A stretch of 64,000 bases of DNA from Candidatus Treponema caballi (lineage in GTDB: Bacteria > Spirochaetota > Spirochaetia > Treponematales > Treponemataceae), in contig JAGHRS010000015.1 of assembly GCA_018066285.1 (NCBI GenBank), forward strand, positions 1 to 64,000, in the 5' to 3' direction. Under the pieces are notes generated by a model that was not told where the DNA came from, did no database searches, and saw only the letters and a program-made list of their open reading frames with translations. How positions within the stretch are numbered: the stretch's first letter is position 1; each line of letters opens with the position of its first letter. Both the position numbers and the translations under genes were made by a program. Of the stretch, positions 18,340 to 29,905 are shown piece after piece.

Positions 18340-18378
18340 AAAGAAGCCTGCAGCAGCATGCCGCAAACGGGTGTGTGC

Positions 18379-18804
18379 TTACGCTGCGAACGGATTCACG
18401 ATTTTGACCCCGTTTATCAGCTGTCCGTCAGCTAAATCCTCTGAGTAAAGCACAACGCAGCCGCTTTTCTCTGCTGATGAAAGAATGAGTGAGTCCCAGA
18501 ACGAAAGCCTGTTCCGAATACTGATGTCGATTGCATCAAAAATGTGGGGCAGAGTGACCTGGTCGACAGAAAAGACTTCTGCATACCCTGTAACGAATTC
18601 TTTTGCCTTATCAGGGGTACATAACTTTTTTCGTGTAACAACGCTGTAAAATTCCTGCAGACTCTGTGTTGAGATGAATCCATTGTTGTTTTTACCAGAT
18701 GTATCAATCAAGTTACGGGCAATGGCTTGTTTCTGTTTATCGCGACCATCTATTGCATAAACCAGTATGTTTGAGTCGAAGAAAACTGTATCAGTATCTG
18801 TCAT
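18379..18804 (-). CDS. PIN-domain toxin paired with an XRE antitoxin
   Basis: 141 residues. Metal-binding acidic residues of the PIN fold are present: Asp10 (FFDSNILVY), Glu51 (SLQEFYSVV), Asp104 (SFWDSLIL) and Asp123 (YSEDLADG). This is a likely ribonuclease toxin. Its ATG lies inside the 3' end of the XRE gene (14-bp overlap), which suggests translational coupling. It belongs to a different PIN subgroup from the toxin at 3269-3670. Confidence 0.88.
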   Translation of the reverse strand: MTDTDTVFFDSNILVYAIDGRDKQKQAIARNLIDTSGKNNNGFISTQSLQEFYSVVTRKKLCTPDKAKEFVTGYAEVFSVDQVTLPHIFDAIDISIRNRLSFWDSLILSSAEKSGCVVLYSEDLADGQLINGVKIVNPFAA

Positions 18805-19345
18805 ATATTTCTTCTCTTGTCATTTTCGTGCCGTCTGAGCAGATATGCAGTTCATCACTCAGGTCAATGATCTTTTGAAATGCCTGCCGTTTCCGATTAA
18901 TACGCTCTTTTCTTCCAGTTTCCCCTTTAAGCAGCTCGCAGAGTTTTTCCATCAGTTCAAGCTTTTCCGTGTATATCAGTTTTGGAAGCATATCCATGAT
19001 ATATCCCAGATACGAGGCTTGTTCTGTCAGAACGGGCTGTCCTGCCGGATCAGCAACCTCAAGCAGCGGCTCTGCTGTTTCATCCGGATATGTCATTTCA
19101 CGGTGAATTGCACCTTCTGCAGACGGCATGCTTTTTTCACAGACAGCATCTCCAATCGTACCGTCAATGATGTATTCGTAGGGAACACGATAAAAGTGTG
19201 CCAGTTCACGAATAACTTTAACCGGCGGATCAACTTCGCCCTGTTCATACTTAATGTACATCTGTCGTGAGATGTTGAGGAATGTCGCAATTGAGTTCTG
19301 GGAGTAATTGTTCATCTCCCGCAGCTGTTTCAGTATCTTGTCCAT
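18791..19345 (-). CDS. XRE-family helix-turn-helix antitoxin/regulator
   Basis: 184 residues from MDKILKQLREM. An XRE/Cro helix-turn-helix occupies residues 1-60 (SQNSIATFLNISRQMYIKYEQGE then PPVKVIRELAHFYRV). The remainder is a charged linker and a helical tail that may bind the toxin. The open frame runs 30 codons further upstream, but ATG 19345 is chosen because a consensus promoter ends six bases before it. There is no Shine-Dalgarno. Confidence 0.82.
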   Translation of the reverse strand: MDKILKQLREMNNYSQNSIATFLNISRQMYIKYEQGEVDPPVKVIRELAHFYRVPYEYIIDGTIGDAVCEKSMPSAEGAIHREMTYPDETAEPLLEVADPAGQPVLTEQASYLGYIMDMLPKLIYTEKLELMEKLCELLKGETGRKERINRKRQAFQKIIDLSDELHICSDGTKMTREEIYDRY

Positions 19346-19351
19346 ACGAAT

Positions 19352-19380
19352 AATATAGTGTGCAGGATATGAAATGTCAA
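19352..19380 (-). promoter_or_regulatory. XRE-PIN promoter, probably leaderless
   Basis: Consensus TTGACA (19375-19380), 17 bases, TATATT (19352-19357), six bases, then ATG. The start codon falls at the expected start site. It is back to back with the promoter at 19426-19453. Confidence 0.8.
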
Positions 19381-19425
19381 AATAAAAAGACAAAAAATGT
19401 ATAAGATAATATACTTGGGCTGTTA

Positions 19426-19453
19426 TTGACAGCACCTGAATCTGTTGTACACT
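19426..19453 (+). promoter_or_regulatory. promoter of the aspartyl-protease lipoprotein gene, probably leaderless
   Basis: TTGACA (19426-19431), 16 bases, TACACT (19448-19453), six bases, then ATG at 19460. No Shine-Dalgarno is present. The geometry matches the divergent XRE promoter 45 bases away. Confidence 0.78.
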
Positions 19454-19459
19454 GAATAC

Positions 19460-20488
19460 ATGAGAAAAAGTCTCATTTTCATGATGAGCCTGCTGTTTAC
19501 AGCGCTTATCCTTCTTTTTTCATGCCAGAAAAACGGGCAGACAGCTTCAGGCGAAGCTTCTTCAAACCAGCCAGAATACCGCCTTGGGGTTTTCCTTGAG
19601 TATAAGGATAATCATGGCCTTTTTACGTCAGAGACGCTTCCGGAAGTGGCTGAATTCTGGAGCAACGCGGCCAAGGCGGGCCAGATTACCAAATACACCC
19701 TGCTGACAAAAGATGAGTATGTCATCCCACTTGAACAGAATGGATACTGGCTCGTTCCCGTTTCGCTCAACGGAAAGCAGAAACGGTTTGTTTTTGATAC
19801 TGGTTGCAACGTCATTTCACTAAGTAGAAGCACAGCAAAAGAGTTCGGCATCACAAGCATTGATGACGTGCATGACTACTACCTGTTCCCGCGCGAGCTT
19901 AATCTTGGCTTTGTAAGATATGAGTATCCGGGAACGACTTCGTTTGCGTATTATGACAACGAAGATGGCATTATCGGATGGACATACTATGCGGGAACTG
20001 CTGATACGCTGACAATCGATATGCCGGGAAAACAGCTTGTAATCAACGGGAAACGTCCGGAAGACGGAGGCATTCCTCTTGATGAAACCCTGCTTGCTGC
20101 AGGACGGATTGTGATTCCTGTGGAGATTGAAGGGCATACATATACTGCAGCTCTTGATACGGGCTGGAGCAGTGATTCTGTCGCAAACTCAAAGACGACG
20201 CATTTTCCGCTTATTGAAGAATCGCGCCTTTATACGAGTTTGTCTTTTTCATGGGCAAGAGTCCGGGGCTTTGCCTGTACATACGAAGTTCCTGAGCTGA
20301 CAGCTGGCAGTGTTGTTCTTCGCGATTTTACGTTCAGGCTTCTTGACGATGAGTACACGGATGAGACTCTTGAAAAGAGCATGACCGGGTATGGCATCGA
20401 TATGATCCTCGGTGGCGATTTCTTCAGTCAGTGCCGTCTGACCATAGATTACGCCAACCGTCTCTGCTGGGTGGAACCTCCGGAGTAA
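19460..20488 (+). CDS. bilobal aspartyl-protease-like lipoprotein
   Basis: 342 residues from the leaderless ATG; a longer reading from TTG 19445 overlaps the -10 box and is rejected. The lipobox LFSC at Cys22 predicts a membrane anchor. Two retropepsin-type lobes are visible: FVFDTG at 111-115 with DGIIG at 169-173, and ALDTG at 231-235 with MILGGDFF near the C terminus. Each lobe thus has its own DTG and hydrophobic-Gly motif, as in pepsin. Substrate is unknown. It may work with the neighbouring zincin, but that is inference from position. Confidence 0.82.
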   Translation: MRKSLIFMMSLLFTALILLFSCQKNGQTASGEASSNQPEYRLGVFLEYKDNHGLFTSETLPEVAEFWSNAAKAGQITKYTLLTKDEYVIPLEQNGYWLVPVSLNGKQKRFVFDTGCNVISLSRSTAKEFGITSIDDVHDYYLFPRELNLGFVRYEYPGTTSFAYYDNEDGIIGWTYYAGTADTLTIDMPGKQLVINGKRPEDGGIPLDETLLAAGRIVIPVEIEGHTYTAALDTGWSSDSVANSKTTHFPLIEESRLYTSLSFSWARVRGFACTYEVPELTAGSVVLRDFTFRLLDDEYTDETLEKSMTGYGIDMILGGDFFSQCRLTIDYANRLCWVEPPE

Positions 20489-20515
20489 AGTTCCAATGGG
20501 AGAAAACTGAACTAA

Positions 20516-21433
20516 ATGAAAAATCGTCCTTTGATTGCAGCCTGTCTGCCCATTATCCTTTCCATGCTTCTTTCATCCTGCTCACACGGCTACAATCCGC
20601 TTGACAAGGTTAAATCCATCCCCCGCGATTCCCTCGTCTGGCTTGAGTCATACGACGGAGCTTCCGGCTACAAGAACCACAAGCTTACCTCAGACGAAAA
20701 GGATCTGATTCAGGAAACATTCCGCACGCTTCCTCCCGTCCTTCAGGAAGCGCTTGAAAACGATGTGTACGCCATCTATTTTGTGGATGGCATGTGGTAC
20801 GGCGCCCTGACTTCGCGCATTCCCGACCTTAACCAGTGCATCATCTTCATTAATCCTGACACGCTGAGTACATCCCTTTCAGAGTGGCTCACTTACCGTG
20901 ACAACACTATCTTTTCAGATGCGTCGGACACATCTTGCTTTGTGTCTGGCTGCGGAAAAAAGGGAGAAAAGTACACGGGCTTCCTGCATACGCTTACGCA
21001 TGAACTTGCGCACGTGTACGACTACATTGACCGCGTTACGCCGTATGTAGAAGACGGCATGAAAGACAATATAAAAGCAGATTCGCTTTTCTACGACACC
21101 TGGAAAGACCGCACACAGCCCCGGAACGGATATGGCACGAGTCAGCTTGAGCAGGTGGCATTCTACGGTTTTGGCGGCTGTGTATCCAGCAGTCTGGCTG
21201 CGGAAATGCTGGGCTGGCTTTCATCCTCGCCGTTCAGCTCTCTGTACGGGGCCACAAACTGGGCAGACGATTTTGCTGAAACGCTCACGTACTACTGGCT
21301 GAACAAAAAGCTCGGATTAGACTACGAAGTCACTTATCTGCAGAATGGTCAGGAAACAGCACATTTCACCTGGTCTGAAAGCGAGGCTGCAAAACGCTGG
21401 AAGCCGCTTTGCAAAGAGATTTGTGGAAAATAA
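20516..21433 (+). CDS. zincin metallopeptidase-like lipoprotein
   Basis: 305 residues. Lipobox LSSC at Cys22. The zinc site HELAH is at 162-166 (LHTLTHELAHVYD), and Glu255 in DDFAETLTYYWL is a good third ligand, giving a gluzincin-like layout. It starts 27 bases after the aspartyl-protease gene, with GGGAGA upstream. Both genes would place peptidase-like domains on the outer face of the membrane. The family is not one I can name. Confidence 0.78.
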   Translation: MKNRPLIAACLPIILSMLLSSCSHGYNPLDKVKSIPRDSLVWLESYDGASGYKNHKLTSDEKDLIQETFRTLPPVLQEALENDVYAIYFVDGMWYGALTSRIPDLNQCIIFINPDTLSTSLSEWLTYRDNTIFSDASDTSCFVSGCGKKGEKYTGFLHTLTHELAHVYDYIDRVTPYVEDGMKDNIKADSLFYDTWKDRTQPRNGYGTSQLEQVAFYGFGGCVSSSLAAEMLGWLSSSPFSSLYGATNWADDFAETLTYYWLNKKLGLDYEVTYLQNGQETAHFTWSESEAAKRWKPLCKEICGK

Positions 21434-21442
21434 ATATTTCTG

Positions 21443-21471
21443 TTGACAGAATCAATAGGGGGGGGTATAGT
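21443..21471 (+). promoter_or_regulatory. strong promoter of the radical SAM/peptide locus
   Basis: TTGACA (21443-21448), a 17-base spacer that ends in a run of eight G, then TATAGT (21466-21471). The predicted start near 21478 leaves a leader of about 250 bases before the radical SAM start codon. The G8 run makes the spacer prone to slippage, so promoter strength could vary. Confidence 0.75.
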
Positions 21472-21585
21472 TTATTTAAGAGAGAGTGAGTTTTGTTATT
21501 TAGTTAAAAAAGTAAGAAATAAAAAACAAAGTAACAATTCAACGTGTTCAATCACCACTTTTTATAGTTTTTCTCATCGAATATG

Positions 21586-21687
21586 TCCTGCGTTGCAGGA
21601 TAAAAAACGGGCAGCCGTTCTCGTAAAACGTCTGCCCGAAACGTGATAGCTATAAAAGACTACCAAATTCACCTTTTATGCTATCAC
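21586..21687. promoter_or_regulatory. three consecutive hairpins in the radical SAM leader
   Basis: Hairpin 1: TCCTGC/GCAGGA (21586-21600). Hairpin 2: CGGGCAG with CTGCCCG (21608-21638) and an inner CGTT/AACG. Hairpin 3: a 15-bp stem with one bulge, GTGATAGC(T)ATAAAAG (21643-21658) with CTTTTATGCTATCAC (21673-21687). On the minus strand hairpin 2 is followed by TTTTTT, which makes it an intrinsic terminator for an antisense RNA. On the plus strand the set could act as an attenuator or protein-binding leader. Confidence 0.7.
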
Positions 21688-21725
21688 AAAAAAATAAATG
21701 TGTAAAATGCACAAAAGGGAAGAAA

Positions 21726-23045
21726 ATGTTTGTTTCAAAACGTACTCTGTTCTTTAAATCAGAACGTAATGGGTATCTACTCTTTTCTGGAAATTCTAAC
21801 AGCCTTTATCAAATAGAGGATGAACTTGTTCCAGCAATTCAAAGAATGATTGAAAAAGGAGATACTTCTCAATTACCAGAAGATGTTGAGAAAGAATTTA
21901 GAAAAAGTGGAATAATCCTATTTGAAGATGATGAAGAATTTCTTCATCGCATGTATCTGAAATCTATGATTGCCAGATTTCGCAAGGGTGATTTGACTTT
22001 AACAATTGCGCCTACGCTGGCCTGTAATTTTAAGTGTACATATTGCTATGAAGGAGAAAGGGCCCAAGGTGGCAATATGGATGATAATGTAATAAAAGGA
22101 TTGGTTAATTTCGCAAAAAAAGGAGAATACAAAAAGGTCCATATTGTATGGTATGGAGGAGAACCACTTCTTGCTTTTGATATAATAAAGAAAATAAATG
22201 ACGAATTTGACAAAGAAGGAATAGAGTTGGCTCCTCAGTCTGCTGTCACGAATGGTTCTTTGTTAACTACTGATATTTTACAGTATGCAATTGATCGAAA
22301 GTTTAGCTATATGCAAATCACTATTGATGGTGATGAAGTTACGCATAATGCCCATAGGCCGATGAAAAACGGAGAGAACAGTTATCAGACTATTCTACAT
22401 AAATTAGATAATGCTTATGAATATTTAAAAACAACAAACCAGTCATTTCTTTTTTCAATTCGTGTGAATGTAGATGAGAATACCTGTGATTTATATCCTG
22501 ATGTAGTGAAAACACTGAAATCCCGATATTCATCAATGGTAAGTTGCTATCCTGCATTCATCGAAAAACCAAATGATGCTGAATGTCATCATGATAACTG
22601 TATGGTTTCTGCTGATCAGGCAGGTTTTATTCTTAAGTTAGCTAGAGAGAGAGGAATACAACTTACACAAACGTATCCTCTTAGTAATCGGCTGCTTAAT
22701 TGCGCTGCTCTAAAATTAGATAATTTTGTTATTTCTCCCACAGGAGATATGTATAAATGCTGGGAAGATATCGGAATTTTAGATTATTCTGTTGGTAATG
22801 TAACCTCGTCATCTTATGATAAGAATAATACTACGTTTAAGTATTTGCTTACTGCAAGTGGATATGAAAATGAAGAGTGCAGGAAGTGCCTTTTTTTATT
22901 TTCTTGTGCAGGAGGGTGCCCTAAAAAACGGCTTACGAATTTACAAAAGAAAATTGTATTGAATCCAGTGTGTTCAGTTATTAAGAATGCACCTGAACAA
23001 TTTATAGAAAGTTATTTCGAATTGAAAAATAGAGCTGCTTTGTGA
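21726..23045 (+). CDS. SPASM-domain radical SAM peptide maturase
   Basis: 439 residues from ATG 21726, chosen for GGGA upstream and the typical N terminus. The first 90 residues resemble the wing region common to peptide-modifying radical SAM enzymes. CxxxCxxC at 100-107 (CNFKCTYC) binds the SAM cluster; WYGGEPLL follows. The C terminus has the canonical SPASM set: Cys326, GDMYKC ending at 345, CxxC at 385-388, Cys394, Cys398 and Cys416, enough for two auxiliary clusters. It probably makes C-S or C-C crosslinks in the precursor encoded downstream. The gene is clearly AT-richer than its neighbours, suggesting transfer. Confidence 0.93.
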   Translation: MFVSKRTLFFKSERNGYLLFSGNSNSLYQIEDELVPAIQRMIEKGDTSQLPEDVEKEFRKSGIILFEDDEEFLHRMYLKSMIARFRKGDLTLTIAPTLACNFKCTYCYEGERAQGGNMDDNVIKGLVNFAKKGEYKKVHIVWYGGEPLLAFDIIKKINDEFDKEGIELAPQSAVTNGSLLTTDILQYAIDRKFSYMQITIDGDEVTHNAHRPMKNGENSYQTILHKLDNAYEYLKTTNQSFLFSIRVNVDENTCDLYPDVVKTLKSRYSSMVSCYPAFIEKPNDAECHHDNCMVSADQAGFILKLARERGIQLTQTYPLSNRLLNCAALKLDNFVISPTGDMYKCWEDIGILDYSVGNVTSSSYDKNNTTFKYLLTASGYENEECRKCLFLFSCAGGCPKKRLTNLQKKIVLNPVCSVIKNAPEQFIESYFELKNRAAL

Positions 23046-23201
23046 AGTGTACCTTGAAAGCGGACGTTTTTGTCTAACTTTTTGAGTACAACTTCATAAG
23101 AGTAGCTTTAAATTAAATTCAAGGAATAAATATAAGCGGAATAACTGAAGGTGCACATTCAAAAAAAGCTGGGTATTTATTTACTTGAAAAGGAGATAAT
23201 T

Positions 23202-23474
23202 ATGAGAAAAATCGAAAGTTTTTCTATTGCGGAATCATTTGGCTGGGAAACAACCAGTGAAAATGAATTAATGGAAGTAAATGGAGGTAGTGGAAAACGT
23301 GATACCTATTGTGGTTGTTACGGGGATGGAGGATATTGCAATAATGTTAATATTAATAGCAATAACAATAGCAATAGCAACAATACAAATGTTAATGTAT
23401 CCGCGAAGGTTCCAATTTGCGGAGATATTAAACCTGCAAAAACAAACCAGGGCCTTAAACAGTCTGCTCGCTAG
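23202..23474 (+). CDS. double-glycine RiPP precursor peptide, Cys/Asn-rich
   Basis: 90 residues with the best Shine-Dalgarno of the locus (AAAAGGAGATAATT then ATG). Residues 1-29 form a leader that ends in ELMEVNGG, the ELxxVxGG signature cut by C39 peptidases. The 61-residue core starts SGKRDTYCGCYGDGGYC: Cys37, 39, 46 and Tyr36, 40, 45. A tract with 12 Asn in 19 residues follows (47-65), alternating with Ser, Val and Ile, then Cys73 and a Lys-rich tail. No known family was recognised. Position between a SPASM enzyme and a C39 exporter supports a modified, exported peptide. Confidence 0.85.
   Translation: MRKIESFSIAESFGWETTSENELMEVNGGSGKRDTYCGCYGDGGYCNNVNINSNNNSNSNNTNVNVSAKVPICGDIKPAKTNQGLKQSAR
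23355..23378 (+). repeat. hexanucleotide repeat (AATARC)4 inside the precursor gene
   Basis: Four in-frame copies of AATAGC/AATAAC encode Asn-Ser or Asn-Asn pairs in the middle of the Asn tract. Gain or loss of units would change the core length without breaking the frame. Confidence 0.75.
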
Positions 23475-23482
23475 TTGAACTT

Positions 23483-23517
23483 CTCCTGAGCAGGATAATA
23501 TATGTTCTGCTCAGGAG
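23483..23517 (+). promoter_or_regulatory. stem-loop directly after the precursor gene
   Basis: Perfect 11-bp stem CTCCTGAGCAG (23483-23493) with CTGCTCAGGAG (23507-23517) and a 13-base loop, 8 bases past the precursor stop. No T run follows. It could protect the precursor mRNA 3' end or reduce read-through into the export genes, giving more peptide than transporter. Confidence 0.75.
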
Positions 23518-23532
23518 TGAATTGAGCCCTTT

Positions 23533-25035
23533 ATGAATCGATATATCAGAGTAGTTTACTTCATAATTATCAGCCTTTCACTCCTCCTGTTTTCATGCAG
23601 TAACTACAAGGAAATTGATATTACACCTGTTTCTGTCCGCGACATAGAAGTCTGCACGTTCAGTGATGCTCCTTTATGGAATGTTCACAAACACATTACA
23701 TATGAGCAGGCTGTAGAAGATGCTGATGACATCTGCTATCTGTTGAATACATGCTATATTGCCTACGATGAAATGCTCAAAAAGGGTTTCTCTGAGAAAA
23801 CGTTTCTTGCGGCAGTAAAAGACCAGTTTGCTGACTGTAATCTGATTCAGAGGGATGAGTTCTGTAACTTTTTGTATGTACAACTATCTCCCTATATACA
23901 AGATGCTCATGCTTCTATAGAGGGACAAGCTTTTTATCAAGATGCGGACATATTCTTTTCTGATTATTATGTCAGACAATCTGCCAGGGGCTATGAAATA
24001 GTCGAACCATCTCCGGATGAATACGTTGGCAGTATCATTACGGAATGTCTTGATGAATATTTGTTTCGTTATCCGTCAAAGGGAGAGAATGTTTTTCGTT
24101 TAGGAATTGTTTCGGTTTATCCGTTCAGTGAAATTACTGTTCAGACTGCTTCTGGTCCTCTTTCCATAACGCTGGAAAAGGAGGATGTAATTGAAAAAAC
24201 GGAAGATGAACTGTCTGCTTTTTCTACTGATGATTCTTTATATATCAAGTGTTCTACGTTTGATCCTGACAGTCTTCCTGATAAACAAAGCCTTGATGCA
24301 TTTGTTGGTTATGCTGATCTTGTAAAGCAGAAAAAATACGCCATAATCGATGTCCGGGAGAATGGCGGTGGACTGGGTTTGTACCAGTTTAACTTTCTTA
24401 AAGCTATTTTCATGAATGAAGAAAAGTCATTTGGTGATTATGTTTCCAACAGGATTCTTTTATATAAAATAGATACACAGAGCGATAGTTCAACGTATAT
24501 ATGTTCGCCATTGATTGTAAAAAGTTTATCTGCTTTCAGAGATCACTATGTAAAGGATGTCAGTGTTTTAGGGAATATCAAATCATTTAATACGGAATAT
24601 CAGAATGATAATCCTCATAGGAGTCTTGTCGTTACCCGTAATACAACAGGAATCAGAAGTAATTATAAAACAGAATATTCAGGAACGTTGATTTTTTTAA
24701 TTGACAGGAATTCCGCTTCTGCAGCTGAAGCGCTATGCATAGAGGCAAAATCAGTATTCCCGGAATCACAGGTTTATATTCTTGGAGAGAATTCTTTTGG
24801 GGCTATGAGTAATGGAACTCCACTCCAATATGTTTTGAAGCATAGCAGAATTATCGTAAGCCTTCCGATTCAGAGACAAGGCGGCGAGGTTGCTTATTTC
24901 CAAGGTGAAGGAATTGGTATTTATCCGGATTACTGGTCAACAACAGAAGATTTGAACGAGACAATCAACTTTATTACAGGAGATTCAAAGATGAGAAGTC
25001 TTCTGACGTCCTTGTTTTATAAGGAGACTCATTGA
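23533..25035 (+). CDS. S41-family peptidase-like lipoprotein
   Basis: 500 residues with lipobox LFSC at Cys22. The C-terminal half has the S41 (tail-specific protease/IRBP) pattern: IIDVRENGGG, FLIDRNSASAAE with the candidate nucleophile Ser in SAS, and GENSFGAMSNG where many CtpA-type enzymes have GxxTxGKG. The catalytic Lys of that motif is missing, so either another residue serves or the protein binds peptide without cutting. It ends one base before the C39 exporter starts. A role in trimming or sensing the exported peptide is inference. Confidence 0.82.
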   Translation: MNRYIRVVYFIIISLSLLLFSCSNYKEIDITPVSVRDIEVCTFSDAPLWNVHKHITYEQAVEDADDICYLLNTCYIAYDEMLKKGFSEKTFLAAVKDQFADCNLIQRDEFCNFLYVQLSPYIQDAHASIEGQAFYQDADIFFSDYYVRQSARGYEIVEPSPDEYVGSIITECLDEYLFRYPSKGENVFRLGIVSVYPFSEITVQTASGPLSITLEKEDVIEKTEDELSAFSTDDSLYIKCSTFDPDSLPDKQSLDAFVGYADLVKQKKYAIIDVRENGGGLGLYQFNFLKAIFMNEEKSFGDYVSNRILLYKIDTQSDSSTYICSPLIVKSLSAFRDHYVKDVSVLGNIKSFNTEYQNDNPHRSLVVTRNTTGIRSNYKTEYSGTLIFLIDRNSASAAEALCIEAKSVFPESQVYILGENSFGAMSNGTPLQYVLKHSRIIVSLPIQRQGGEVAYFQGEGIGIYPDYWSTTEDLNETINFITGDSKMRSLLTSLFYKETH

Positions 25036-27213
25036 ATGCACTACCGTCAGCAATACGATGAAACAGACTGCGGGGCTGCGTGCCTTGCGATGATAGCTTC
25101 TCATTTCGGCAAATCATTGAGCATAGCCGAGGTTCGCCGCCAGGCTGGAACTGACCAGATAGGCACCAATCTGCTCGGTCTTGTTGAGGCTGCAAAAAAG
25201 TATGGCCTTAAGGCAGAGGCTGTTAAAGGTGGTCCTGAGGCGCTCAACAGAAAGACGCCAGTTCCTTTCATTGCTCATCTGCACATTAAGGATGAAGAAA
25301 AAGATCTTGATGTTACGCATTTCGTCGTCATAAAGAAAATTACTAAAAAGCAGATTACTGTCTGGGATCCGGATCCTGAAAAGAAAAAACGCACGATTCC
25401 GCTCGCTGATTTCCTGAAAGACTGGACAGGTTATGCCGTCTTCTTTGAGCCTGATTTCACTTTTGTAAGCGACAAAGACAGCAACAAAAAGACAGGTGGC
25501 AGACTTTTCAAGTTCCTTCCGGTTTTTGTTCCCTACAAAAAACTTATCCTGTTTTCTCTTCTCGCTTCACTCATCCTCATTTTCTTTGGCATTGTAAGTT
25601 CGTTCTATTATAAATACCTTTTCGATGAAGTCATTTACGCAAAAGCTTCATTTACGCTCGTCACACTGTCTGTCGGCATGCTTGTTGTCATTGTTACTCA
25701 GTCTGTCATCGAAACAATCCGGAGTGTTCTTCTTTCGCACTTCTCGTTTAAGACGGATCTGACGCTCAATTTCTCGTACCTGTCGCACATTTTTAAGCTG
25801 CCAATTTCGTTTTTCGAAAGCCGTAAATCCGGTGAAATCCTGTCCCGGCTTGGTGATCTGGATACGGTAAAGAATACTCTTTCCAACACCGTCATGTCAG
25901 GTCTACTCGATGTAATCATGTTGCTTGTCATAGGTCCGGTGCTGTTCTCGGTGAATAGTGCACTTTTCGGCATTTCTCTGTGCACGGTGCTTGTTGTAAG
26001 TGTTATTGTCTTCTTCTTTTCTAAAGTGTACAAACGTTACTACAGCGAAGTGATGAGTCAGAATGCGGATGTACAGTCGTACCTTTATGAATCGATAAAC
26101 GGTGTCGCGACAGTAAAAGCGCTGAACGCAGAACAGAAAGTGTTTGAATCGTATGAAAAGAAAAAGATGAAGGCCGTTGATACAAGCTGGCATTTAAATC
26201 GTTTCAGTATTTCGCAGAATCTTCTGACCGGTCTGGTCAGCGGAATCAGTTCAATCCTCGTGTACTTGATAGGTTGCCGTTTCATCATAAACGACACTTT
26301 GACCCTGGGAACGCTAATTTCCTTCAATGCACTTTCAGGCTATTTTACGGGGCCTCTGTTCCGTCTTGTGAACATGCAGTCTGGCCTTCAGGAAGCGCTT
26401 GTTGCGTCTGAGCGTGTTGGCGAGATTCTTGAGCTTGAAAAAGAGCAGGATGACACTTCTCATCTGCTGATGCCGGAAAGCATTCAGGGTCAGATAGACA
26501 TTCAGGACATAACTTTCAGGTACGGTACACGTAAGAACATATACGAGCACCTTTCAATGACCATAAACAAAGGGGAGTGGACAGCGATTGTCGGTCCTTC
26601 GGGATGTGGTAAGACGACGCTCACCAAACTGCTCCTTAAGTTTTACGAGGTACAGGAAGGTCGCATTTTCATTGATGGAACCGATATCCGCGACATTGAT
26701 GCGGCAACGTTTCGTTCAAAGGTTGGCTATGTACCACAGGATGTTTTCCTTTTCTCGGGAACTGTCGCAGAGAACATCGCCATGCATCAGCCGTGTGCCA
26801 CAATAGAAGAGATCATGCTTGCCGCAAAAAAAGCAGGCGCTCACGAGTTTATTGAAAAACTCCCAAAACGCTATGATACAGTACTTGGCGAACATGGCGG
26901 CGGTCTTTCAGGTGGTGAAAAGCAGCGGCTTGCCCTCGCGCGCTGTCTTCTCGGAAGTCCCGCGTTCATTATTCTTGATGAAGCGACCAGTAATCTTGAT
27001 ACAGTGAGCGAGCAGGCTATCCACAAGGTTATTGAAAGCCTCAGGGATGAGCATATCACCGTCATCCTGATAGCGCATCGTCTTTCAACAGTGAAGAATT
27101 GTGACACCATCTTCGTCATGCAGGATGGCCGCATCGTCGAAAAGGGCAACCACGCGGAGCTTTTGAAAGCGGGCGGCCTCTACAGCGAGATGTGGCAGGG
27201 AGCGTCAGTATGA
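25036..27213 (+). CDS. peptidase-containing (C39) ABC exporter
   Basis: 725 residues. An N-terminal C39 protease domain (1-140) with Gln6, Cys12 (DETDCGAAC), His95 (VTHFVVI) and Asp111 (WDPDP) should cut the double-glycine leader. Six transmembrane helices follow (about 165-450). The C-terminal ATPase has GPSGCGKTTL, LSGGEKQRLALARCLL and IILDEATSNLD. All catalytic residues appear intact. ATG follows the S41 stop with no gap. Homologues include LanT/PCAT and bacteriocin exporters. Confidence 0.95.
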   Translation: MHYRQQYDETDCGAACLAMIASHFGKSLSIAEVRRQAGTDQIGTNLLGLVEAAKKYGLKAEAVKGGPEALNRKTPVPFIAHLHIKDEEKDLDVTHFVVIKKITKKQITVWDPDPEKKKRTIPLADFLKDWTGYAVFFEPDFTFVSDKDSNKKTGGRLFKFLPVFVPYKKLILFSLLASLILIFFGIVSSFYYKYLFDEVIYAKASFTLVTLSVGMLVVIVTQSVIETIRSVLLSHFSFKTDLTLNFSYLSHIFKLPISFFESRKSGEILSRLGDLDTVKNTLSNTVMSGLLDVIMLLVIGPVLFSVNSALFGISLCTVLVVSVIVFFFSKVYKRYYSEVMSQNADVQSYLYESINGVATVKALNAEQKVFESYEKKKMKAVDTSWHLNRFSISQNLLTGLVSGISSILVYLIGCRFIINDTLTLGTLISFNALSGYFTGPLFRLVNMQSGLQEALVASERVGEILELEKEQDDTSHLLMPESIQGQIDIQDITFRYGTRKNIYEHLSMTINKGEWTAIVGPSGCGKTTLTKLLLKFYEVQEGRIFIDGTDIRDIDAATFRSKVGYVPQDVFLFSGTVAENIAMHQPCATIEEIMLAAKKAGAHEFIEKLPKRYDTVLGEHGGGLSGGEKQRLALARCLLGSPAFIILDEATSNLDTVSEQAIHKVIESLRDEHITVILIAHRLSTVKNCDTIFVMQDGRIVEKGNHAELLKAGGLYSEMWQGASV

Positions 27214-28373
27214 AGAATTCTCTGAAACTCATAGACTACAAGACATTCGAAAAAACGTCGCCATTCTTTATGCTGAAGCCGTCAAAAGGCTGTTATGCGT
27301 TTATTCTTACGGTGCTTGTCGTACTGGCTGCCACATTCATCTGGGCTGCTTTTGCCCCTTTTGATGAAGTTGTAGATGCTTCAGCTGTTCTCCGCACACT
27401 TGATGTCGTTTCTTCTGTAAAATGTGTTACAAGCGGGCAGATGGTTCAAAAAGCGTATGTGAATGACTCATTTGTGAAACAGGGAGATTTCCTCTTTTCC
27501 CTTGATGTGACCAATTTTGAGAAACAACGTGAATCATATGCCCTTCAGCTGGCTGCAAATCAGGAAAATCTAGATATATATTCTGCACTTCTTAAAACAA
27601 TTGAACTGGATGAAATACCTGAGAACCTCGTTGAAAATCCTGATTCAAAGGCATATCTGGTTGCCCGTGATTATCTTCTCCAGAAGAAGAATTATTCGCT
27701 GGCTGTTTCAACGGCTCTGAATGCGCTTGAAAAAGAGAAAGCTATGACTACCTTTCAGTCTGTTGCGTTTCAGATAAAGGAACTTGAAACCGAATACGAA
27801 AAGCAAAAACTCCAGGCGGAAACATGGGTAAACAGTCAGCATATGAATGCCCTCAATTATGTCACTCAGTACGAAAAGGAAAAGATTATCATTGAAAGTA
27901 CGCTGGCTGATATTGACCGTACAATCCAGAATGCAACGATTACAGCTCCTATTTCGGGGCGTGTAGCTGAAATGACCCGGCTTAATATCGGTGATTACAT
28001 TCTCTCTGGAACAGAAGTACTGAAAATTGTCCCTGAAGATGCAGATGCTCTCATTGCAGATATTTACGTAAATGCTGCTTCCATGCCGCTTGTGAAGACG
28101 GGAAATCCCGTACTTTTGAAGTTCCCAGGTCTTCCACCATCACGGTACGGTCAGCTGGAAACTACAGTTTCGGTAATTCCGCCAGATGCTTCTTCTGTTG
28201 TTGATGGAAATGCTGTTTTCATCATTCAGGCCCTTATCGAAAATCCTGTTCTTCGCGCGAAAGATGGCGAAGAAGCGATCCTTCTGCCTGGAATAGCTGC
28301 TTCAGCAAAAATAGCGACTGGAAGAGATACGGTCTTACGGATGATCCTGAAAAAGCTGGATTTTCTTCACTAA
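27210..28373 (+). CDS. HlyD-like membrane fusion protein
   Basis: About 387 residues from ATG 27210, which overlaps the exporter stop by 4 bp (ATGA). One N-terminal transmembrane segment (YAFILTVLVVLAATFIWAAF), a lipoyl-like half motif (VTSGQMVQKAYVNDSFVKQGDFLF), a helical hairpin of about 140 residues, and the second half motif (TAPISGRVAEMTRLNIGDYI). It links the inner-membrane C39 exporter to an outer-membrane channel in a type I-like secretion path. Confidence 0.92.
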   Translation: MKNSLKLIDYKTFEKTSPFFMLKPSKGCYAFILTVLVVLAATFIWAAFAPFDEVVDASAVLRTLDVVSSVKCVTSGQMVQKAYVNDSFVKQGDFLFSLDVTNFEKQRESYALQLAANQENLDIYSALLKTIELDEIPENLVENPDSKAYLVARDYLLQKKNYSLAVSTALNALEKEKAMTTFQSVAFQIKELETEYEKQKLQAETWVNSQHMNALNYVTQYEKEKIIIESTLADIDRTIQNATITAPISGRVAEMTRLNIGDYILSGTEVLKIVPEDADALIADIYVNAASMPLVKTGNPVLLKFPGLPPSRYGQLETTVSVIPPDASSVVDGNAVFIIQALIENPVLRAKDGEEAILLPGIAASAKIATGRDTVLRMILKKLDFLH

Positions 28374-28465
28374 ACTTTTGCATTTTCTTATTATTTCAGT
28401 TTTTTTTAAGCGAACCCCGTTATTTTTTACTCATTATGTTGTTTAATACAAAAAAGGAGATAAAC

Positions 28466-29905
28466 ATGAAGAAAACGTTAAGGACTCTGACCGTCCTCTG
28501 CTCTGTTTTCTTTGCAGCATCCGGCCTTTCTGCACAGACCCCTCAGACGACATACGAAAGCCTGCTTTCAGGTTATTTCGACAACGACATGAAGATGAAG
28601 GAACTGAACATTTCCGTTCAGCAGGCTGAGATATCGTATCAGAAAACACTCATCAACAATGAAACGACATTCCAGCTTTCAACAGGTTCTCTCTCGATGG
28701 AGTTCGGTAATAACTCGACCAGTTTTTCCATCCGTCCGGAAGCTTCTCTGACCATTCCTGACAAAGATAACCTTCAGGTGACAGTGTCTGCGCCAGTATC
28801 TATCCGGAATGCGAACGACACTACAACGACTGCACTTAACGATGCAGGCATCACCGTTTCAAAGAATCTCATTTCCACAACGGATGAGACTACGGCCATC
28901 AACATGGAGAAAGCCGAACGGTCGTTAGGTGAAGCGTACAGAAAGGTTGCTTCACGCAAAGTCGCTATGGAAAAAGAGTTTCTTTCCTCCCTTAAGTCAC
29001 TGTTTTCAAGCCGTTCATCAGTGCTGAAAGCGCAGAGTACGCTGTTCGATAAACAGGACGCCATCAGTACCTTGAAGACACAGGGCTATCTTGAGTCTTC
29101 GTCCAAGTACCGTTCTGCAGTGCTCGCTGAAAAGTCCGCTGCCCGTAAGCTTGAGGAAGCCGAGCGTTCCTTCAGTGCGTCCCTTTCTTCTTTTGCGGAA
29201 AAATGCGGCGTCTTGTCTTCTTCCATTGACCTTTCATCCATTGAAATCCCGGATGAAGAACTGATTTCCATAACAGACTTTGACGCCGACTCTTACTCAG
29301 AACTTGAATCTGCCATCTGGAACCATTACATAAACGGACGCTCCCGTGCAAACAAGTCAGACTGGACGCTTTCCGCAAACGGCGGCGTGGGCGTGACAGC
29401 TTCCACAGACGATCGCACTGACACCACAACAAGCGTGAAAGCCGGTCTTTCTGCCACCTACAAAGCATGGACAGCTTCTGCAAACGTTTCCGTTCCTTTT
29501 GGCGATGACAGCAAGTCAACGTCAGTTTCCTTTTCCTTAACCTGGAAACCGTCCACCGTCCGTACGCAGGATCTTGATGACAAATCAGCTGAACTTACTT
29601 CTCTTCAGGAAGAACTTTCCATAGAGCAGGCCCGTTCATCCTATGAAGATACAGTCGAAAGTTACGAGACAAAGCGTGACAATCTACTCTGGCAGCTTGA
29701 AGAACAGACGGATGAAGTTGACATGTACAAGGCGCTTGCTGATGACATGAAAAACTGGTACGACCAGGGCTACATAGCAGAATCAGAATATAAGAATGCA
29801 GTAACGCAGTATGAAGACGCCCTTGCGGCTCTTCAAAGCACGAAAATAGACTTTCTTACTTACAACAGGGATGTACAGTCGCTGTTCATCCGGGAGGAAC
29901 AGTAA
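28466..29905 (+). CDS. TolC-like outer-membrane efflux protein
   Basis: 479 residues from ATG 28466, which has AAGGAGATAAAC just before it. A cleavable signal peptide ends near GLSAQ. Two long helical repeats (about 150-240 and 365-470) flank a central strand-rich part with many Ser/Thr, as in TolC/OEP channels. It lies between the HlyD-like adaptor and the MacA-like adaptor, and so could serve both exporters. It is spaced 92 bases from the upstream gene and may be a new translational unit. Confidence 0.85.
   Translation: MKKTLRTLTVLCSVFFAASGLSAQTPQTTYESLLSGYFDNDMKMKELNISVQQAEISYQKTLINNETTFQLSTGSLSMEFGNNSTSFSIRPEASLTIPDKDNLQVTVSAPVSIRNANDTTTTALNDAGITVSKNLISTTDETTAINMEKAERSLGEAYRKVASRKVAMEKEFLSSLKSLFSSRSSVLKAQSTLFDKQDAISTLKTQGYLESSSKYRSAVLAEKSAARKLEEAERSFSASLSSFAEKCGVLSSSIDLSSIEIPDEELISITDFDADSYSELESAIWNHYINGRSRANKSDWTLSANGGVGVTASTDDRTDTTTSVKAGLSATYKAWTASANVSVPFGDDSKSTSVSFSLTWKPSTVRTQDLDDKSAELTSLQEELSIEQARSSYEDTVESYETKRDNLLWQLEEQTDEVDMYKALADDMKNWYDQGYIAESEYKNAVTQYEDALAALQSTKIDFLTYNRDVQSLFIREEQ

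Follow-up and report, generated by a model that had tools for sequence, protein, structure and literature searches.

What the linked genes of one Treponema locus make, and whether the product belongs to a named class of RiPP, is the question raised by a 64,000-nucleotide stretch of Candidatus Treponema caballi (contig JAGHRS010000015.1), referred to here as the window. The original prediction described a path in which a peptide is modified, its leader cut and the product exported. Most of the parts that it named are present; the starts of the maturase and HlyD genes and the membership of the TolC-like gene needed revision, and genes lying upstream had been overlooked. Judged from its sequence, the gene island very probably encodes the synthesis, cross-linking, trimming and export of a small peptide rich in Cys, and the RiPP locus is sound, conserved and probably functional, of a subfamily without a name.

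The promoter proposed ahead of the maturase gene was found as a promoter-like TTGACA-17-TATAGT element at 21443-21471 (+), with 11 of 12 consensus matches. The maturase 5′ leader (21475-21725, +) is strongly structured (z = -7.2 versus shuffles) and contains three stable hairpins, one of which encloses the annotated start at 21678. This leader is possibly an attenuator. It was rejected as a conserved riboswitch on the grounds that it has no Rfam match, is present in single copy in the genome and is unlike the leaders of relatives. The annotated maturase open reading frame spans 21678-23045; given that a hairpin encloses its first ATG and that homologues begin MF(V/L)SKR, the likelier start is GGGAAGAAAATG at 21726, which would give a gene spanning 21726-23045 (+).

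The encoded radical SAM/SPASM peptide maturase has an RRE-like N-terminus, a radical SAM core and a SPASM domain, and the same three parts are seen in its predicted structure (pLDDT 87.4). The CX3CX2C motif comprises C116, C120 and C123. The canonical 7-Cys SPASM domain that had been reported was confirmed as C342, C361, C401, C404, C410, C414 and C432, which match the CX9-15GX4C...CX2CX5CX3C...C spacing read directly in the sequence. All ten cluster Cys are invariant across 24 rows of homologues. Scanning genome contigs with the single maturase sequence revealed no relatives, and an alignment-based scan yielded 515, of which 80 were retained. In a tree of 86 homologues, the window sequence groups with five others of the Treponema family (100/99) and then with L016 (100/97), apart from all other phyla; the Treponema maturase clade is well supported. 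The system is also carried by a rumen strain, T. bryantii B25 (loci L020 and L024). Second radical-SAM proteins are encoded within the clusters of three relatives (L012, 13125-15590; L013, 4753-7218; L015, 6998-8653); that of L012 is 821 residues long and also carries a Methyltransf_24 domain, and its L013 homologue is likewise of 821 residues.

Comparison with NCBIfam models gave full-length best matches of 204 bits with TIGR04463, 196 bits with CefB and 184 bits with Clo7bot, against respective cut-offs of 525, 600 (NF038107) and 600 bits (TIGR04334). Scores were lower with PapB (127 bits, cut-off 340), the SCIFF-subtype ranthipeptide maturase (101 bits, cut-off 425), the cyclophane models YhhB (61 bits) and GrrM (56 bits) and the sactipeptide enzyme RumMC (61 bits); the lengths of these models are unequal, and with every one of them the score stays under the cut-off. 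The maturase relatives score like the window protein. In a Foldseek search with the predicted structure, CteB ranked first (8e-20), and it was also the top match of the sequence profile among solved structures (111 bits). VIA-align placed CteB (Z 26.7, 399 residues aligned, RRE included) level with anSME (Z 27.1, 335 aligned), and TigE, SuiB and ChlB were among the other fold matches. The maturase is a member of a broad Clo7bot/CefB/TIGR04463/PapB/SCIFF-like group, and CteB is one of the solved structures nearest to it in fold.

The SCIFF/ranthipeptide maturases CteB and PapB share with the window enzyme the RRE-like N-terminus, the radical SAM core and the 7-Cys SPASM domain. By contrast, the window maturase is only ∼20% identical to them, and its locus has a non-SCIFF precursor, T1SS-type export and an S41 neighbor. 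The Clo7bot, CefB and TIGR04463 maturases also act on Cys-rich targets, but the window precursor does not match theirs, and the one reference plasmid locus inspected for each of Clo7bot and TIGR04463 contains no S41 gene and no annotated C39 exporter, both of which are present in the window.

The precursor gene (23202-23474, +) encodes 90 residues, with the leader MRKIESFSIAESFGWETTSENELMEVNGG and a 61-residue core that contains 4 Cys, 13 Asn and a DTYCGC motif. The predicted ELxxVxGG element is present as ELMEVNGG. The core is long, with an Asn-rich middle devoid of Cys and a basic tail; an AATAGC repeat of 4.3 copies (23355-23380) encodes the Asn-rich part and is a possible place of length variation. 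Common to the leaders of six genomes are the motif M[KR]x[IM]E[SD]F...SFG and a GG or GA ending; the leader of L016 has a looser form. When 274 genomes of the family were searched with a leader profile, strong matches (E below 1e-12) were obtained in all six genomes that encode a close maturase and in none of the other 268, and always adjoined the maturase gene; the profile was made from the six genomes' own leaders, so that the information lies in the absence from the 268, some of which are incomplete. Together with the domain content, this co-occurrence, put forward earlier as a check, supports the RiPP locus well. A second leader copy in genome G044 is decayed and contains an internal stop, and in L015 (15500-16500) a decayed precursor copy, MKTLESFNVLESFG, is followed by a stop, with a further double-Gly peptide nearby.

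It is very improbable that the locus yields a double-Gly bacteriocin or signal peptide that stays unmodified, beside a degenerate or unrelated maturase. Treponema denticola provides a precedent in its TepA/TepB C39-HlyD exporters with double-Gly peptides, for which no maturase has been described (PMC4947327), but the window maturase is intact, is conserved (46-48% identity) with all cluster Cys invariant, and has the leader as its neighbor wherever it occurs in these genomes. The precursor and its relatives gave no match above cut-off to Pfam or NCBIfam precursor models, the Clo7bot and SCIFF precursor models included, and the maturase falls far below every equivalog cut-off. The earlier statement that the core fits no named class therefore holds; the wider claim of novelty does so in part, as membership of the broad maturase group indicates that the chemistry is not wholly new on present evidence. 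Literature searches on Treponema RiPPs, radical SAM/SPASM proteins, Clo7bot and ranthipeptide lipoprotein immunity returned no description of this system.

The number of core Cys residues is four in the window, L012, L013 and L015, five in L016 and one in L011 and L014. A residue of the set Asn, Asp or Glu precedes Cys as [NDE]xxC in five of six independent cores, where 2.6 would be expected by shuffling (p 0.026, uncorrected); this motif alone stood out among nine tried and is not significant after correction, and the test counts related loci as independent. Its spacing equals that of the Asn-Cys link of the ranthipeptide NxxcA, in which Cys23 is joined to Asn20 (PMC8326336). We regard it as quite unlikely that the enzyme instead forms sactipeptide α-thioethers or C-C cyclophanes, or introduces a change other than a cross-link, such as a TigE- or anSME-like oxidation. 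The presence of anSME, SuiB, ChlB and TigE among the fold neighbors and the single Cys of two precursors are consistent with such chemistry; the scores with Clo7bot, CefB and TIGR04463 (184-204 bits) and PapB, which exceed those with YhhB, GrrM and RumMC though all stay below cut-off, speak against it by favoring maturases of Cys-rich peptides and ranthipeptide models.

Export would be served by a PCAT-type C39 peptidase-ABC exporter (25036-27213, +). The catalytic residues claimed for it are present (Q6, C12, H95 and D111), its ATPase motifs are intact, and it scores 601 bits with the C39 peptide exporter model TIGR01193 (cut-off 524) and 563 bits with PCAT1. The HlyD-family periplasmic adaptor (27210-28373, +) is also present as predicted, with its start probably at ATG 27210, within an ATGA overlap with the exporter gene. 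PCAT1 and T. denticola TepA/TepB resemble the window system in combining a C39-ABC exporter, an HlyD partner and double-Gly leaders; unlike the TepA loci, the window locus includes a maturase. The TolC-like gene (28436-29905, +), which follows the HlyD gene at a distance of 62 bp, had been counted in a single six-gene unit. It is instead a resident gene that heads a conserved, vertically inherited OMF-MacA-MacB operon and directly follows TraB in congeners G002, G003 and G006. Its product is nonetheless the probable outlet for the exporter.

In these three congeners the gene order is TraB-OMF-MacA-MacB, with the same flanks as in the window, and window positions 18340-28435 (∼10.1 kb) correspond to only 78 bp (G002), 53 bp (G003) and 252 bp (G006). 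The island comprises nine genes (18379-28373), seven of them in the same orientation from the aspartyl lipoprotein to HlyD and two, encoding HTH and PIN proteins, in the opposite one; there is no gap between the S41 and exporter genes, and the exporter and HlyD genes overlap. Of the seven genomes representing the genus, just one encodes the maturase. The GC content of the radical SAM, precursor and S41 genes is 34-38%, compared with 47% for the window. The empty site in three congeners and this low GC content point to acquisition, and the simplest reading is that the ∼10-kb RiPP module was inserted as an island upstream of the TolC-like gene in the window's lineage; three losses in the congeners are a less simple possibility. 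Given that the GC content of the exporter gene is nearer the background, the island may be composite in origin.

The protease-like envelope lipoprotein of the original prediction (23533-25035, +) was identified as a member of the S41 family (PF03572, 8.7e-11). The His of its DxH motif (H126) and the catalytic Ser (S396) are invariant in 16 rows of S41 homologues. The protein lacks the Lys typical of C-terminal processing peptidases, LGENSFGAMSNG occupying the position where the GxxTxGKG motif of S41A enzymes would be expected, and S41 proteins next to maturases mostly lack this Lys. PDB profile matches, at low identity, include the nisin-resistance protein NSR (4y68), an S41 enzyme whose Ser236/His98 dyad serves to cut nisin (PMC4698656); the fold search was based on a moderate model (pLDDT 69). 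NSR is likewise envelope-anchored and acts on a RiPP, and the invariant S396 and H126 of the window protein would fit a Ser-His pair without Lys like that of NSR; but NSR is a resistance factor against the product of another strain, whereas the window S41 gene lies within a biosynthetic locus.

An S41 gene adjoins the maturase gene in five of the seven family loci. In the window, L012, L013 and L016 it comes next after the precursor gene, and L014 has S41 genes in two positions around its maturase gene. In L011 its place is taken by a double-DTG aspartyl-type lipoprotein and in L015 by a DUF4932 lipoprotein with HEFSH. In L185 (12563-15175), a stretch in which no maturase was found, an S41 gene adjoins a DUF4932 gene. 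The scanned distant loci (L025-L099) contain 12 S41 genes. Nine of these are less than 1 kb away from the maturase, in a region that makes up 14% of the flank (p 4e-6, with loci counted as independent although related); the remaining three are in the far flank, for all its sixfold greater length. The nine near genes are on the maturase strand, often overlapping or touching the maturase gene, and belong to Bacteroidales and further Bacteroidota, to Bacillales and to Thermoanaerobacter; their loci fall at scattered positions of the maturase tree. This recurrence of S41 beside the maturase, which the original prediction did not develop, is the most interesting part of the analysis.

The invariant Ser and His without Lys and the presence among the matches of NSR, which cleaves nisin, favor by analogy a role for the S41 lipoprotein as an envelope protease for immunity, with trimming as the other candidate. 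That it is a maturation protease of the same pathway, cutting the exported peptide once more, perhaps in its Asn-rich tail, we consider unlikely. Fungal dikaritin RiPP clusters have conserved S41 peptidases (PMC6514808), and the length of the 61-residue core, with its Cys-free middle and basic tail, and the recurrence of S41 next to the maturase are in keeping with trimming, but C39 cleavage already removes the leader, and the cores of L012, L013 and L016 (21-29 residues) offer little to trim, S41 being present there nonetheless. A literature search on S41 peptidases with RiPPs returned eukaryotic or fungal papers only and no bacterial system of this kind.

We hold it to be slightly on the probable side that the island is a horizontally acquired, ranthipeptide-like module for a Cys cross-linked RiPP, with leader binding, C39 cleavage, export and a dedicated S41 envelope protease. 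The set of genes, the intactness of the catalytic residues, the conservation of the linkage and the fold are what the analysis shows; the cross-link type, the S41 role and an antibacterial or signaling activity are what we infer. The RRE-like domain of the maturase would bind the precursor leader ([IM]E[SD]F...SFG...GG/GA), and the enzyme would oxidatively cross-link core Cys, most likely through ranthipeptide-type (non-α) thioethers to nearby Asn, Asp or Glu side chains. The exporter C39 domain would cleave after Gly-Gly, and the peptide would exit via ABC-HlyD and then probably through the TolC-like protein of the resident operon. In the envelope, the S41 lipoprotein would be a Ser-His protease dedicated to the peptide, most likely inactivating peptide that returns to the producer, as NSR inactivates nisin, or alternatively making a final cut. 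Against a ranthipeptide-like product, the L011 and L014 cores beside the maturase have one Cys only, which limits thioether patterns, and SPASM enzymes of similar fold (TigE, SuiB, ChlB) perform other chemistry. Against a dedicated S41 protease, two of the seven loci have an aspartyl or a DUF4932 lipoprotein in its stead; against an NSR-like role are the low identity, the moderate model and a correspondence of its active-site His with His98 of NSR that is putative.

Ranthipeptides and other Cys-rich radical SAM peptides are common, but little is known of what they do and of how their producers are protected. The conserved gene for an envelope protease next to the maturase in several phyla offers a handle on both. 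We raise as a tentative possibility, with the balance of probability somewhat against it, a cross-phylum class of radical SAM RiPP with its own envelope protease for immunity or activation (S41 Ser-His, interchangeable in Treponema with double-DTG or HExxH lipoproteins), in which the producer would protect itself by proteolysis and not by binding or efflux; in this genome the module would use the resident OMF-MacAB operon for its outlet. The antiSMASH ranthipeptide rule applied in a recent rumen survey depends on the SCIFF precursor model TIGR03973 (PMC13289728). The window precursor does not match this model, and loci of its kind would thus escape TIGR03973-based detection of ranthipeptides.

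The upstream genes that had been missed are two lipoprotein genes (19445-20488 and 20516-21433) and the HTH/PIN pair (18379-19435). The HTH_3 gene (18791-19435, -; Pfam HTH_3, 1.2e-11), at the island edge, and the PIN-domain gene (18379-18804, -; Pfam PIN, 1.2e-11) overlap by 14 bp, are missing from the empty site of the congeners and probably form a toxin-antitoxin-like or regulatory pair. The second lipoprotein (20516-21433, +) is zincin-like, with HELAH; it was rejected as a core part, since 15 other genomes of the family have homologues and none of six contexts read contains a maturase, and its connection to the RiPP is weak. The first (19445-20488, +) is a double-DTG, retropepsin-like protein (Pfam Asp_protease_2, 1.4e-13, in two stretches; D118 and D238), whose gene has a promoter-like site of its own at 19426; both DTG motifs are present in four of four homologues from L011 and L014. 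It was downgraded from core part to possible partner, as relatives occur in 45 of 274 genomes and about 5 of 20 sampled contexts adjoin double-Gly peptides or a C39 exporter. Near double-DTG aspartyl-type lipoproteins in L011, L014, L178, L186, L190 and L194, a second family of double-Gly peptides was observed, with leaders like GFSVMSTEELYEINGG and cores often rich in Ser/Thr, as if the two were paired as peptide and protease.
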